64,000 bases of DNA, taken from positions 1 to 64,000 of the forward strand of contig JBFLWQ010000009.1 in the NCBI GenBank assembly GCA_040757775.1, given 5' to 3'. Below the pieces are notes generated by a model, which had not been told where the DNA came from, ran no database searches, and worked only from the letters and a program-made list of their open reading frames with translations. Positions 18,444 to 55,171 of this stretch are shown piece by piece; the first letter of the stretch is position 1; every line of letters begins with the position of its first letter. A program made the position numbers and the translations under genes. The DNA comes from Thermodesulfobacteriota bacterium (GTDB taxonomy: Bacteria; Desulfobacterota; UBA8473).

Positions 18444-19742
18444 ATGGAGGAGCTATTAAAAAAAATCAGGAGTAAAACTGCTAAAATTGCCGTTATTGGC
18501 ATTGGTTATGTAGGTTTACCTCTGGCAATTGAGTTTGCCAAAGAGGGATTTGACGTCACAGGGATAGATACTGATCCAAGAAAGGTGGAGGCTATAAATA
18601 GCGGAAGTTCTTACATACGTGATGTTGAAAAAGAGGAACTAATACCCTTGGTTCAGAGTCGGAGGCTACGCGCAACCCTTGACTATTCCCTTTTAAAGGA
18701 TATAGATGCCATATCTATCTGTGTCCCCACCCCTCTTAACAAAACAAAGGACCCTGATGTTTCATATATCCTGGATGCTGCCAATAAGATATCAAAATTT
18801 ATCCATGCTAAACAATTAATTGTATTAGAAAGCACTACTTATCCAGGGACAACAAGGGAGTTGATTCTGCCTATACTCAAAGAGACGGGATTAAAGGTAG
18901 GTGAAGATTTTTACCTTGCTTTTTCTCCTGAACGAATTGATCCTGGTAATAAATTTTATAAGACCAGAAATACACCAAAGATAGTAGCAGGCATTACACC
19001 AAAATGTACTGAAGTGGCTGAGCTTCTCTATCAGCAGGTTATAGATACTATAGTAACGGTTTCCTCTACAGAAACCGCTGAGGTCGTAAAGTTACTGGAA
19101 AATACGTTTCGCAGCGTTAACATTGCTCTGGTGAACGAGGTTGCCATTATATGTAATAAACTAAAATTGAATGTCTGGGAAGTTATCGAAGCTGCTGCTA
19201 CCAAGCCTTTCGGATATATGCCTTTCTATCCAGGGCCTGGACTGGGCGGACATTGCCTGCCTATAGACCCTTCCTATCTATCCTGGAAACTGAGAACCCT
19301 GGATTATAGGGCAAGATTTATTGAATTAGCAGGTGAGATAAATACAGAAATGCCTTACTTTGTAACCAACAAAATAATAGATGGTTTGAATAGATCCATG
19401 AAGAGTGTCAATGGCTCTAATATCTTAGTCTTAGGGGTGGCATACAAGAAGGACATCGACGATATCCGGGAATCCCCCGCCCTGGATATAATAAAGATCC
19501 TCAAAGAAAAGGGGGCAGAAGTAATATTTAATGACCCCAACGTCCCATTTATAAAGACCGATGAACTTAAGATGTCATCCGTGGTCATTAATGAAGAACT
19601 ATTGAAAAAAATGGACTGTGTAGTAATTACTACTGATCATAGTGGCTATAATTGGCAATGGATTACCAAAAATGCCAATCTCATAGTTGACACAAGAAAT
19701 GCAACCAGAGGAATAAATACAGAGAAGATAATCAGACTCTAG
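18444..19742 (+). CDS. Nucleotide sugar dehydrogenase (UDP-GlcNAc/ManNAc 6-dehydrogenase type)
   Basis: Encodes 432 residues. The NAD-binding Rossmann fold AVIGIGYVGLPLAIEFA is followed by VESTTYPGTT-like ESTTYPGTT, SPERIDPGN and the central helix with NTFRSVNIALVNE. The active-site Cys lies in GLGGHCLPIDP near residue 268. The C-terminal UDP-binding domain has GVAYKKDIDDIRESPA. The subfamily pattern matches WbpA/WecC-like enzymes that oxidise UDP-N-acetylhexosamines to uronic acids for surface polysaccharide. AGGAAAGGA precedes the ATG. No other polysaccharide genes are adjacent. Confidence 0.9.
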   Translation: MEELLKKIRSKTAKIAVIGIGYVGLPLAIEFAKEGFDVTGIDTDPRKVEAINSGSSYIRDVEKEELIPLVQSRRLRATLDYSLLKDIDAISICVPTPLNKTKDPDVSYILDAANKISKFIHAKQLIVLESTTYPGTTRELILPILKETGLKVGEDFYLAFSPERIDPGNKFYKTRNTPKIVAGITPKCTEVAELLYQQVIDTIVTVSSTETAEVVKLLENTFRSVNIALVNEVAIICNKLKLNVWEVIEAAATKPFGYMPFYPGPGLGGHCLPIDPSYLSWKLRTLDYRARFIELAGEINTEMPYFVTNKIIDGLNRSMKSVNGSNILVLGVAYKKDIDDIRESPALDIIKILKEKGAEVIFNDPNVPFIKTDELKMSSVVINEELLKKMDCVVITTDHSGYNWQWITKNANLIVDTRNATRGINTEKIIRL

Positions 19743-19747
19743 CAATA

Positions 19748-19812
19748 TTGATGAACTCGTAAAAAGTCAGGAAACCCTCTCTCTTGTCATTCTGGCGGAA
19801 GCCGGAATCCAG
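19748..19812. repeat. Composite repeat remnant: half of family A plus half of a GTCATTC family
   Basis: TTGATGAACTCGTAAAAAGT (19748-19767) is the end motif of the element at 7239. It is followed at 19786 by GTCATTCTGGCGGAAGCCGG and AATCCAG, the left half of the family seen at 61407. Neither half has its opposite arm here. Confidence 0.5.
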
Positions 19813-19888
19813 TAATTTCAAGCAGTATCTATCAAGTAATTAACAATAACGCCCCCAAATAAATATTAAGCCCCTCTAACTCACAACA

Positions 19889-21241
19889 TCAATAAAGGCT
19901 GAATATCTTTACCCCTAGAGCGGCAAGGAAACCGACAAGAGTAGAGAGACCTACTATAGTGCCTCCTCCCTGCTCGAAGGCCTCAGGAAGCATGGTTTCT
20001 GCAATCATGGTAAGCATGGCTCCAGCAGCTAGCCCTTCGATTCCAGAAATAAAATATCGCAGAGCTCCTTCCGGATGTGCCGGAAAAAGCAAAGTTCCTA
20101 TCAGGGCTCCCATGCCTGTCATCACGCAAAGGGACATCCACATCCAGAAGATCTTCATGAAACTCGAGCCCTGTCTCTTCATCGTGACAGCGCTTGACAT
20201 TGCTTCCGGCAGATTAGCAAGAAATACACCGACGATAAAAGCTAAGCTTATCGTGGTACCCGATGCCGCTGCAATAACAACAAGCATACCGATGACAAGA
20301 GATTCGGGAATGCCATCAAGCGCTATGCCTAGCCAGATGGCAAGAGCCGCACCTCCGCTGGCACGCTCCTTTATTTCATGGTGGAGATCCCTTTCAGTAA
20401 CAGGGATAGTAAGCCTGGCCAGATTTCTCAGGGCACTCTTTTCCCAGGCTTTAGCCTTCCCAACCAGAATACTGTCTTTTGCCTCTATGTCATAGAGTCG
20501 TTCTTTTATCATCCTGCTGCAGGCATCTCTGAGGGCAGGAGAGTGTTTTATCAATTGTTCAAACTCGGACTTGTGAATAGTACATGTCTCGATATCTGTT
20601 ATTGCACGTACGGTGGCGGTCCTGGGCATGTCCGAAATGAGGGCAATCTCACCGAAAGTGTTCCCCTCCCCAAGTTCCGCAATTAACTTGGTATCTGTCT
20701 CTGATTCGCGAATAATCTGAACATTGCCCTTGACAATAAAATAAAGTTCCGAAGCGATGTCTCCCTGCTTGAAAATCGTTTCACCGGCATGGAATTTCAT
20801 GGTCTTTAAATGAGGAATAAGTTTAACGAATTCTTCAGCTGGGAGTAACTGAAGAATCTCGATTTTGCTCAGTGCCCGGATCATATTCCTTGCTCTGCCC
20901 CGTTTGATCTTCAGTATATGTTTTTCTATGAGTGAAGGCTTTCGAAGAAAGGCACCTCTATTATTTAGAAGCTGGTTGAGAAGCTCGAAGAGAAGGCCGC
21001 CAAAAATAGCACCAATCATCGTTGCCAGGATAATTCGGACATCATGGGCATTATGTGAAATGTGTAATGAATGGGAGAAAAGCTCAATGGTAAGCGCAAA
21101 TAAAAGCGCTCCTCCGCCAAATGCCATAAGAGATGAGGTAACCTTCTTTGACGGACTTGACCATAATCCAATAATTGCGCCAAGTGGTAAAGAAACAGCA
21201 CTAATACAACCCCATATTAATGCGGCAATCATTACTTTCAC
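19889..21241 (-). CDS. ZIP-family metal transporter with an inserted cyclic-nucleotide-binding domain
   Basis: Encodes 450 residues. Two to three transmembrane helices (about 1-90; LPLGAIIGLW, FGGGALLFALTIELFSHSL) are followed by a cytoplasmic insert. The insert carries a Crp-type cNMP-binding domain (about 125-240) with AGETIFKQGDIASELYFIVK, GEGNTFGEIALISDMPRTAT. After about residue 285 the membrane part resumes with the ZIP motifs ALDGIPESLVIG and NLPEAMSSAV, then MIAETMLPEAFEQGG. ZIP proteins carry Zn, Fe or Mn ions. The DGIPES site replaces the more common HNxPEG. The insert suggests gating by a nucleotide or simple tethering; ligand is unknown. Confidence 0.8.
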   Translation of the reverse strand: MKVMIAALIWGCISAVSLPLGAIIGLWSSPSKKVTSSLMAFGGGALLFALTIELFSHSLHISHNAHDVRIILATMIGAIFGGLLFELLNQLLNNRGAFLRKPSLIEKHILKIKRGRARNMIRALSKIEILQLLPAEEFVKLIPHLKTMKFHAGETIFKQGDIASELYFIVKGNVQIIRESETDTKLIAELGEGNTFGEIALISDMPRTATVRAITDIETCTIHKSEFEQLIKHSPALRDACSRMIKERLYDIEAKDSILVGKAKAWEKSALRNLARLTIPVTERDLHHEIKERASGGAALAIWLGIALDGIPESLVIGMLVVIAAASGTTISLAFIVGVFLANLPEAMSSAVTMKRQGSSFMKIFWMWMSLCVMTGMGALIGTLLFPAHPEGALRYFISGIEGLAAGAMLTMIAETMLPEAFEQGGGTIVGLSTLVGFLAALGVKIFSLY

Positions 21242-21319
21242 GGTTTATACTCCGTATTTGGGTGATGGATATGGGGGTGGATATGGGGTCAAATCTTTAT
21301 CCTTGACTTAGTTGCGTTT

Positions 21320-21440
21320 TTATTCACCTCCGCCACCCCGTTTCAATAAATCCTCCCTTTTTACTCCCATCTGTTTACAGGTTACACGTATTATCTTTTC
21401 TGGCTCGACTTGTCCCAGTATCTGCTTCTTATACTTCTCG
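21320..21440 (-). pseudogene. C-terminal relic of a REP-associated transposase-like gene
   Basis: The minus strand reads SEKYKKQILGQVEPEK, then IIRVTCKQMGVKREDLLKRG and a stop at 21320-21322. This resembles the helix-turn-helix tail found after REP-associated tyrosine transposases. No transposase core is present. The downstream sequence (rc of about 21270-21310) has the AAGATTTGACCCC phrase and a duplicated GGATATGGGG (21267-21288), which I associate with such elements. The upstream end overlaps the lipocalin-like gene's last codons. Confidence 0.4.
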
Positions 21441-21863
21441 CTCCCAAACGAAAATTCCAGTGACTGTCGTGCCAGCCGCTGGTATGGGCGGGGTTTTGAG
21501 TGTCAAGCGATTGCCAGAAAACTCGAAAAACCTTTTCTGGTCTTGACCCACCCAGTTCGGAAAGTGGCTGCCTCTGACGCGATGGGTGACTGTACCTTCT
21601 TCCTCATCAACTTCATAGATGCCGAAGTAAGCCGTGTATCCATCAAAAGCTGCCTTGATTTCTTCCGCCGTACCTTTTCGAATGCTACCAGATACGAAAA
21701 TCGGGCGGTCCGGGTTCATGATTTGGGCAGACATATGCCCATGCTCATTATAGATGAGCATTCCAATGGCTTCCTTGCCATAAGGGTATGCTGTGCTTCC
21801 ATCTGATCGCTTGAATTCGGATGTAACAAGTTTCCAAACGCCGACAAAGTTATCTTTGACCAT
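21429..21863 (-). CDS. Lipocalin-like domain protein
   Basis: Encodes 144 residues from ATG 21863, where AAGGAGG is well placed; the longer reading to 21947 lacks such a site. The features FVGVWKLVTSEFKRSDGS, GMLIYNEHGHMSAQIM and a closing LTLKTPP...FVWEREV strand are those of the lipocalin-like family (single beta-barrel). There is no signal peptide, so it is probably cytoplasmic. A ligand cannot be named. It is monocistronic between a transposase relic and the slipin gene. Confidence 0.72.
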   Translation of the reverse strand: MVKDNFVGVWKLVTSEFKRSDGSTAYPYGKEAIGMLIYNEHGHMSAQIMNPDRPIFVSGSIRKGTAEEIKAAFDGYTAYFGIYEVDEEEGTVTHRVRGSHFPNWVGQDQKRFFEFSGNRLTLKTPPIPAAGTTVTGIFVWEREV

Positions 21864-21999
21864 AGGTAGCCTCCTTTTTCTTGATGGGCTAGAAAACCTG
21901 GTTGCAATCCCGTAGCCTTCCTCGTTTGCGCTCTGCTTGCCTAACAATGTTATTAAGCGACAAAACGAGTGTAGCAGAAATAGGCTTTTTTATAAAATT

Positions 22000-22752
22000 C
22001 TACTTCTCTTTATCTACCAGCTTCAAGAACGGTTTAAACAGGTCAATGGGAATAGGGAAAATGGTTGTTGAATTGTTCTCTGCTGCAATCTGGTTCAGGG
22101 TCTGAAGGTATCTAAGCTGCAGAGACATGGGTTCTGTTTCCATAAGGGCTGCCGCCTCAATCAGTTTCTGAGCAGCCTGATACTCACCCTCGGCATTAAT
22201 GATCTTTGCCCGCCGTTCCCTCTCTGCTTCCGCCTGTTTGGCTATGGCACGTTTCATCTCCTCAGGCAGGTCAATATGTTTGATTTCAACCAACGTTACC
22301 TTAATCCCCCAGGGATCGGTACTGCGATCCAGGATTTCCTGCAGGCTCAGATTGATCTTTTCCCGTTCCGATAGAATTTCATCCAGTTCCACCTGACCGC
22401 AGACACTCCTCAAGGTCGTCTGGGCAAGCTGAGAGGTCGCATAGAGGAAGTTCTCTACCTCTACGACAGCCTTATTGGAGTCCATGACCCGAAAATAGAC
22501 AACAGCATTTACCTTAACTGAGACGTTGTCTTTGGTAATTACATCCTGGGGAGGGACATCCATAGTAACCAGCCTTAAACTGACCTTCTGCATCTTATCA
22601 ACAATTGGAATCAAGATTATCAATCCAGGGCCTTTTGTGGCAATTAACCTCCCCAGACGAAAGATGACACCTCGTTCATACTCGTTTAACACCTTCACAG
22701 CACTTGCCAGAATAATAAACAGAAAAACAGCCAATACAACCCATCCAATCAT
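22000..22752 (-). CDS. Slipin (stomatin-like SPFH membrane protein)
   Basis: Encodes 250 residues. One N-terminal membrane helix ([18 protein letters not shown]) is followed by [13 protein letters not shown], the SPFH domain opening, and [20 protein letters not shown], the coiled-coil helix typical of slipins. It oligomerises in membrane microdomains. It lies 31 bases downstream of the NfeD-like protease gene on the same strand; this stomatin-NfeD pair is a known conserved operon in bacteria and archaea, where the protease cleaves the stomatin C-terminus. GGGAGG precedes the ATG. Confidence 0.92.
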
Positions 22753-53668: not shown

Positions 53669-53857
53669 CTTTTTCCTCCTTAACAGTTTGTTATCTAAAC
53701 AATAAATTGGGATAATAATAGAACCCCGGCAAAATGTCAACTCGAACTTGCAAATTATAATGCTTATGTGGTATTATTCAAAAATTGATATAATACTATC
53801 TGGCAACAGATTAGGATTGGAAATTGATGGCCCTAAAAGAGAGATATCTGCAATACA

Positions 53858-55171
53858 ATGGTAAAGCTTTCTGAGATTCTAAATAAAGGTGTATTCCTTT
53901 TATTCCATGGGTTGGTTCTGTTCGGCTTATACTTGAGCAGTCTTTATAGCTACCTCCTTTTTCATAGCCTTGTGGAGATATTCAGCATTTTTGTCGGCTA
54001 TGTGATTTTTGTGTTTTCCTGGCACTCGAGAAAACGCATGGACAATAATTACCTCCTGTTCATGGGGATTGCTTTTTTGTTCATCAGCAGTCTGGACCTG
54101 ATTCATACGCTGGCTTACAAAGGTATGGGTGTATTTCCTGGATATGGCGCTAATTTACCGACTCAGCTCTGGATTGCTGCCCGCTATCTCCAAAGCCTTA
54201 CCTTGCTCATCTCACCTGTATTTCTCCAACGGAAACTGAATATCTATCTCGGGTTTGCGGTGTTTGCGGTAGCCACTGTCCTTGCGCTAGCCACGATATT
54301 TACCGGTGCTTTCCCGGCTTGTTTTGTGGAAGGGGTAGGCATGACACCATTTAAGAAGATAAGTGAGTATATCATTTCACTCATCCTCTTAGCCTCCATC
54401 GTGCTACTGCTTCGCAGACGTACCTCGTTCGACCGGAATGTATTGCAGTGGTTGGTTATGTCCATTGTCTTGACTATCGGAGCGGAATTAACGTTCACGT
54501 TATATATCAGCGTGTATGGCATTTCCAATCTGATCGGGCATTTCTTCAAACTTATCGCATTTTATTTAATTTACATCGCCATCGTTGAAACAGGATTAGA
54601 GAAACCGCATTACCTGTTGTTCAGAAATCTGAAACAAAATGAGGAAACACTAGAAAAAACAATCAAGGAAGTGAAACACTTAGCGATTACCGATTCGCTG
54701 ACAGGTCTGTACAACCGGCGCCATTTTTACAAGCTAGCTGAAGATGAGAGTCATCGTGCCTATCGCTATCAGCACCCCTTATCTGTAATTATGCTGGATA
54801 TTGACTACTTTAAGCAGATTAACGATACCTTCGGGCACACCGTTGGTGATGAAGTCCTGCAACGGGTAGCTGAATGCTGTCGCCAGCAACTGCGTAAAGT
54901 GGACGTATTGGGCCGTTACGGAGGAGATGAATTTGTAATGTTGCTGCCTGAAAGTAATCTGACTGCCGCTTGCCAGGCGGCTGAACGTCTGCGCACGACT
55001 ATCGCGCAGGTGACATTGAACACCACCAAGGGGACTGCAAAGGTCACTGCAAGTCTGGGCGTTGCTGCTATGGACACTGAAAATCTCACACTGGAAACCC
55101 TGCTCATCCATGCGGATCAAGCCCTCTTAGTTGCCAAACAGAATGGGCGAAACCGGGTATGTTGTGATTGA
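53858..55171 (+). CDS. MASE3-type membrane sensor diguanylate cyclase
   Basis: Encodes 437 residues. Seven hydrophobic segments in about 1-250 (GVFLLFHGLVLFGLYLSSLY, IAFLFISSLDLIHTLAYKGM with the MASE3 DLxHTxAYKG signature). A short coiled linker leads to a GGDEF domain (about 285-437) with ITDSLTGLYNRRHFYKLAED, MLDIDYFKQINDTFGH and RYGGDEFVMLLPE. The RKVD tetrapeptide five residues before GGDEF matches the inhibitory c-di-GMP site. It should make c-di-GMP under membrane-signal control. Only 2 bases separate its stop from the convergent carboxyltransferase. Confidence 0.9.
   Translation: MVKLSEILNKGVFLLFHGLVLFGLYLSSLYSYLLFHSLVEIFSIFVGYVIFVFSWHSRKRMDNNYLLFMGIAFLFISSLDLIHTLAYKGMGVFPGYGANLPTQLWIAARYLQSLTLLISPVFLQRKLNIYLGFAVFAVATVLALATIFTGAFPACFVEGVGMTPFKKISEYIISLILLASIVLLLRRRTSFDRNVLQWLVMSIVLTIGAELTFTLYISVYGISNLIGHFFKLIAFYLIYIAIVETGLEKPHYLLFRNLKQNEETLEKTIKEVKHLAITDSLTGLYNRRHFYKLAEDESHRAYRYQHPLSVIMLDIDYFKQINDTFGHTVGDEVLQRVAECCRQQLRKVDVLGRYGGDEFVMLLPESNLTAACQAAERLRTTIAQVTLNTTKGTAKVTASLGVAAMDTENLTLETLLIHADQALLVAKQNGRNRVCCD

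Follow-up and report, generated by a model that had tools for sequence, protein, structure and literature searches.

A ZIP-type gene with a cyclic-nucleotide-binding domain inside it

The window analysed here is a stretch of 64,000 nucleotides from the genome (3.1 Mb) of a Thermodesulfobacteriota bacterium. On its minus strand, at 19889-21241, a single open reading frame with a GTG start codon encodes a protein of 450 amino acids (an alternative start, ATG, is possible three codons in), and the gene lies intact within one contig, C9, of 110.8 kb. An earlier note, made from the letters of the sequence, had described the product as a metal transporter with a complete nucleotide-binding domain spliced into its cytoplasmic loop, and all the motifs that it quoted are present in the reading frame. 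The Pfam search that it proposed recovered both domains: Zip, split over two stretches (44.6 bits against a curated cut-off of 35.1, E 1.5e-11; the best stretch at residues 288-425), and cNMP_binding over residues 148-233 (86 bits against 27.5, E 1.7e-24). NCBIfam held no specific model for the protein, and its best matches there were far under cut-off. The features are as follows.

19889..21241, minus strand: ZIP-CNBD fusion gene, 450 aa, single open reading frame with Pfam Zip and cNMP_binding
20960..21233, minus strand: TM1-TM3, approximately residues 4-94 (AlphaFold2 helices)
21037..21072, minus strand: predicted periplasmic TM2-TM3 loop with H57, H60, H63 and H66 (sequence and positive-inside counts)
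20489..20869, minus strand: cyclic-nucleotide-binding domain (CNBD) with B/C helices, approximately residues 125-251, Pfam core 148-233 (Pfam, AlphaFold2, Foldseek)
20612..20656, minus strand: phosphate-binding cassette F196-GEIALISDMPRTAT-210 with G197, E198 and R207, invariant in 34/34 fusions
20354..20488, minus strand: predicted two-helix linker, residues 252-296, from the C-helix of the CNBD to TM4 (AlphaFold2, conservation)
19892..20353, minus strand: TM4-TM8, residues 297-450 (BbZIP profile match, invariance)
within 19892..20353, minus strand: D309-x3-E313 (DGIPES) on TM4 and N343-x2-E346 (NLPEAMSS) on TM5, at the BbZIP M1/M2 positions
21429..21947, minus strand: lipocalin-like gene (Lipocalin_5, Pfam E 2.6e-38), upstream on the same strand

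An AlphaFold2 model built from a 30-sequence alignment (mean pLDDT 79.8) places three transmembrane helices first, then a complete CNBD and then five further transmembrane helices, eight in total; confidence in how the domains are arranged is modest (pTM 0.59), and the run was of a monomer, whereas BbZIP, the ZIP of Bordetella bronchiseptica, is a dimer. TM1-TM3 are modelled as helices 2-28, 32-65 and 68-94, followed by a helical lead-in. The CNBD has the beta roll, the cassette helix and the B/C helices, with its strands and cassette helix at about residues 128-233 and its C-helix reaching residue 251; a poorly predicted break (251-258) and two linker helices lead to the five helices that begin at residue 297. 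The positive-inside pattern of the loop charges puts the CNBD on the cytoplasmic side. Domain matches and model thus agree with the earlier description of a ZIP protein whose cytoplasmic TM3-TM4 loop holds an entire cNMP-binding domain.

Distribution of the fusion among bacteria

The survey of this architecture across genomes, which had also been proposed, yielded 34 fusions: the window protein, 29 full-length relatives from a scan of genome contigs (41-80% identity) and four more (37-43% identity) from 395 genomes of the window's own phylum, a search that also returned four short relatives. The 29 relatives were binned as Myxococcota/Deltaproteobacteria, Spirochaetota, Latescibacterota, Gemmatimonadota, Nitrospinota, Nitrospirota, Desulfobacterota, Omnitrophota, Acidobacteriota, Bdellovibrionota and Pseudomonadota, and the identical layout is found in about ten phyla. 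Pfam Zip (E <= 0.01) and cNMP_binding were both matched in 30/30 proteins of the first alignment, which comprised the window protein and 29 homologues, and the segment from R100 to D309 measures 198-213 amino acids in every one of the 34 fusions. A fusion or assembly artefact, which the earlier note had named as an outcome that would undo its reading, is ruled out, since independently assembled genomes yield 34 proteins of this layout and the gene is intact in its contig. The ZIP-CNBD combination is a conserved architecture, neither chance nor misassembly.

In a maximum-likelihood tree with 33 of the fusions, all of them fell on one side of a branch with support 99/97, and Bacillus and other short ZIPs of the subfamily, without CNBD, fell on the opposite side; the placement of long-branched sequences, L071 for instance, is less certain. 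The tree is consistent with one insertion event having given rise to the fusions.

An all-against-all comparison of the neighbours of the fusion genes revealed no widely shared neighbour gene. Shared context was seen in three Bdellovibrionota members only (L025:5399-6715, L027:744-2063 and L035:5983-7302), where the ZIP-CNBD gene directly follows a gene for an ftsI-like penicillin-binding protein and is followed by two Mur ligase genes (murE/murF-like) and mraY-like genes. One would not expect a metal transporter inside this division/cell-wall cluster.

The predicted ligand pocket of the inserted domain

Both its sequence and its fold place the inserted domain in the cNMP_binding family (PF00027). 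When the whole-protein model was compared with the PDB by Foldseek, CNBDs alone appeared among the 50 matches listed, including PKA RI-alpha CNB-B, HCN2, M. tuberculosis CRP, GlxR and MloK1. The label 'Crp-like' given to the domain earlier is fair, but PKA/PKG, HCN and bacterial channel CNBDs match at least as well in both sequence and fold.

The phosphate-binding cassette, previously called nearly canonical, is canonical: it carries the ribose-binding Glu and the phosphate-binding Arg, and G197, E198 and R207 are present in 34/34 fusions. Across region 125-250, these three residues and G172 are the only invariant positions, and four invariants placed at random on about 121 positions would catch both ligand contacts with p about 0.0008. 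The domain as a whole is variable, with a mean major-residue fraction over the 34 fusions of 0.50 for the CNBD versus 0.70 for TM4-TM8. The counterparts of E198 and R207 are E72/R82 in CRP and E58/R67 in Bd1971, pairs that contact ribose and phosphate; the spacing is identical to that of the Bd1971 pair, through which Bd1971 binds both cAMP and cGMP (PMC6717892). Since E198 and R207 are among the four invariants, nucleotide binding is favoured over a dead domain of the CNNM type, and there is good, but indirect, evidence that the CNBD of the fusions binds a nucleotide. The loss of key ligand residues that had been named as a possible objection is not observed, and ligand control, which the earlier note had inferred, can be graded as likely, given a canonical cassette whose ligand residues do not vary among the 34 relatives.

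The genome of the window encodes seven class III nucleotide cyclase domains, several of which retain the aspartates that bind metal and a Lys of the kind typical of adenylate cyclases. PF00211 cyclases were found in 33/33 fusion genomes tested (the window's and 32 others). This co-occurrence lends weak support to a cyclic-nucleotide ligand, because the rate is already 77% (229/297 genomes) in the window's phylum, the single phylum from which the reference rate was taken. Genetic linkage of the ZIP-CNBD gene to a cyclase or to a metal regulon was not seen.

At residue 208, next after the cassette Arg, 16 of the 34 fusions have Thr, 7 have Ser and 6 have Asn; this variability (Thr, Ser, Asn, other) leaves cAMP and cGMP indistinguishable at the position. 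It is unlikely, in our estimate, that the CNBD is functional but responds in the cell to cGMP or a different cyclic mononucleotide instead of cAMP: Thr is the PKG-type residue, and some bacterial CNBDs (Bd1971, Clr) take both nucleotides, but bacterial channel CNBDs have Thr as their consensus too (PMC2246266 for both consensus assignments), so that it does not decide. The adenylate-cyclase-type Lys of the cyclases in this genome also speaks against it.

It is quite unlikely that the domain binds no nucleotide and serves purely as a dimerisation or docking module. This reading has a precedent in the CNNM/CorC magnesium transporters, which likewise transport divalent metals and bear a cyclic-nucleotide-binding fold on their cytoplasmic side: the CNBH domain of CNNM4 dimerises and binds neither cAMP nor cGMP (PMC6940986). 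The ZIP fold can itself dimerise, through TM3/7/8 (PMC10256678). The CNNM/CorC transporter fold is a different one, however, with the CNBH domain C-terminal to CBS domains, and the two residues missing from the CNNMs are precisely the Glu and the Arg (PMC6940986) that are both invariant in 34/34 fusions, kept down to about 38% identity in a domain that otherwise varies freely.

The membrane part and its metal site

Because the whole-model PDB matches listed were CNBDs, the ZIP fold was examined on a relative from the subfamily that lacks the CNBD, for which Foldseek gave ten matches with E <= 0.001, all of them BbZIP entries, with a TM-score of up to 0.81. A profile of the subfamily over TM4-TM8 matched BbZIP over TM4-TM7 (E 7.5e-8); a PDB search with a profile from six Bacillus short ZIPs alone gave no match. 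The window model, the matches of the relative and the family profile agree on an eight-helix fold of the BbZIP type (ZIP/SLC39, PF02535).

At the metal site, BbZIP H177, N178, E181 and Q207 correspond to D309, G310, E313 and A342 of the window protein, and D208, E211 and E240 to N343, E346 and T375; S106 corresponds to E53, with TM2 aligned by eye. D309, E313, N343 and E346 are invariant in 34/34 fusions and E53 is nearly so. The bridging carboxylates E181/E211 are therefore retained, as E313/E346, whereas the canonical HNxPEG signature with its M1 His is replaced by D309-G-I-P-E-S. As the signature with its His is missing, the fusions were filed as a divergent ZIP subfamily. This replacement of the canonical TM4 His by Asp, a point absent from the earlier note, means that the metal is perhaps other than zinc, and a His-free carboxylate site may favour Mn2+ or Fe2+ over Zn2+. 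S106 of BbZIP and its equivalents bear on substrate choice (PMC10372143).

The TM2-TM3 loop of the window protein (residues 57-68, with the sequence HSLHISHNAH in it) has a His at every third residue, a feature common to the nearest relatives; the median over the 34 fusions is three His in this loop. Predicted to be periplasmic, it is a possible metal-collecting site.

The unusual TM4/TM5 motifs and the TM7 motif 'MLPEAFEQGG' are shared with short 'DGIPES/NxPE' ZIPs (L036-L041 and L072-L075, and plasmid matches H1-H10). Unlike the window protein, these have 240-267 amino acids and no CNBD and lie across the 99/97 branch. Short ZIPs with the TM4 His-to-Asp change are widespread (Bacillus, rhizobia, Deinococcus, haloarchaea), and the short DGIPES proteins are annotated as ZIP family zinc transporters or hypothetical proteins, nothing more.

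With the M1 His and M2 Glu of BbZIP replaced (H177 by D309, Q207 by A342, E240 by T375), the transport competence of the ZIP part is not assured. The protein could then be a transceptor, in which metal occupancy of the ZIP part alters the CNBD with little net transport, and the missing conserved neighbour gene is what a stand-alone device might show. We consider this improbable: D309, E313 and E346, which are of metal-binding type, and N343 are invariant, a close relative without CNBD has the BbZIP fold, no output domain is attached, and the protein is the sole ZIP of its genome. For a member of the ZIP family, metal uptake is likelier than release, so that of the two directions named in the earlier note, uptake is retained and release becomes the less likely one.

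Origin of the gene and the surrounding segment

No match to the ZIP-CNBD protein was found in the four same-genus and three same-family genomes searched, which rules out an old vertical gene of the genus. In the ZIP-CNBD protein, the two relatives closest to it (L007 and L008) reach 80% and 77% identity, but in arginyl-tRNA synthetase only 49% and 46%. The ZIP-CNBD gene has a GC content of 46%; the window as a whole has 43%, and the argS, UDP-sugar dehydrogenase and NfeD genes have 39-41%. The gene looks horizontally acquired.

At the matching places of close relatives, the lipocalin-like gene is absent together with the ZIP-CNBD gene, and it belongs to the same variable segment. In the related genome G164, the SPFH-NfeD block comes directly after the argS-SPOR pair, and in G075 the UDP-sugar dehydrogenase gene is followed by genes located at 49-54 kb in the window. 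This gene order places the ZIP-CNBD and lipocalin-like genes at a rearrangement junction. Gene order in same-genus genomes, compared with 19742-22000 and 53740-53858 of the window, suggests that the segment between about 20-22 kb and about 53.8 kb has been inverted or otherwise rearranged, the two genes being at one of its junctions.

The gene at 53858-55171 encodes a membrane protein whose C-terminal domain is GGDEF (RYGGDEF), a probable diguanylate cyclase, and the earlier note had hinted from it at c-di-GMP as a ligand; this is very improbable and was rejected, since the gene lies 33 kb off and unlinked, the nearby segment end is joined differently in relatives, the cassette is of the canonical mononucleotide (cAMP/cGMP) type, and the genome has its seven class III cyclases.

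A proposed mechanism and its place among known systems

In BbZIP, the TM3-TM4 loop has two His residues that detect zinc in the cytoplasm and inhibit uptake (PMC10256678), and TM1, 4, 5 and 6 form the transport domain, which moves relative to the scaffold (PMC11549095). TM3 is part of that scaffold. The window protein resembles BbZIP in having a regulatory element in this loop; it differs in that a loop of about 20 amino acids with two His is replaced by one of about 200 with a CNBD. By analogy, its TM3 would belong to the scaffold, and since TM4 belongs to the transport domain, the CNBD would lie in the covalent link between the fixed and the moving parts.

We propose that the protein is a ZIP-fold divalent-metal transporter whose autoregulatory TM3-TM4 loop has been swapped for a functional CNBD. 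cAMP, or less likely cGMP, from the class III cyclases of the cell would bind the cassette via E198 and R207 and rearrange the hinge and C-helix, and this movement would travel through the linker (residues 252-296) to TM4, the first mobile transport-domain helix past the loop, which would be pulled or freed while TM3 stays anchored in the scaffold. Ligand occupancy would thereby permit or block the elevator step and thus metal entry. The linker is the least conserved part of the protein (mean major-residue fraction 0.37 over the 34 fusions), so the coupling cannot be assigned to any particular contact. We judge it somewhat probable that nucleotide binding to the built-in CNBD gates the elevator motion and metal entry.

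Bd1971 (a CNBD-EAL phosphodiesterase), SthK and MloK1 have the same cassette, with nine residues from E to R, and in them a cyclic nucleotide governs a non-transcriptional output. In these the nucleotide acts on an enzyme or on a channel pore and the CNBD is terminal, unlike the ZIP-CNBD proteins, in which it is spliced inside an elevator transporter. In the open-licence papers searched, no description was found of a ZIP with a CNBD or of a ZIP under direct allosteric control by a cyclic nucleotide; an earlier mention is possible, and any Pfam scan would reveal the pair of Zip and cNMP_binding domains. Among the 30 CNBD families of a census from 2007 there are channels and AAA/ABC-type proteins but no ZIP (PMC2246266), cyclic nucleotides go unmentioned in a pan-domain ZIP survey, and ZIP regulation has been described with the metal itself as the regulator (PMC10256678).

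More tentatively, with a chance that we put a little short of even, the fusions may constitute a widespread bacterial class of ZIPs, with divalent-metal uptake gated post-translationally by cAMP, that arose by a single ancestral replacement of the metal-sensing loop by a cAMP sensor and spread by gene movement between phyla. If the proposal is true, cAMP signalling would be tied to transition-metal uptake without transcription. The proteins would offer a compact system for learning how the TM3-TM4 linker controls elevator motion, as a soluble ligand would act there, and the Asp-for-His metal site of the family is a test case for metal selectivity.
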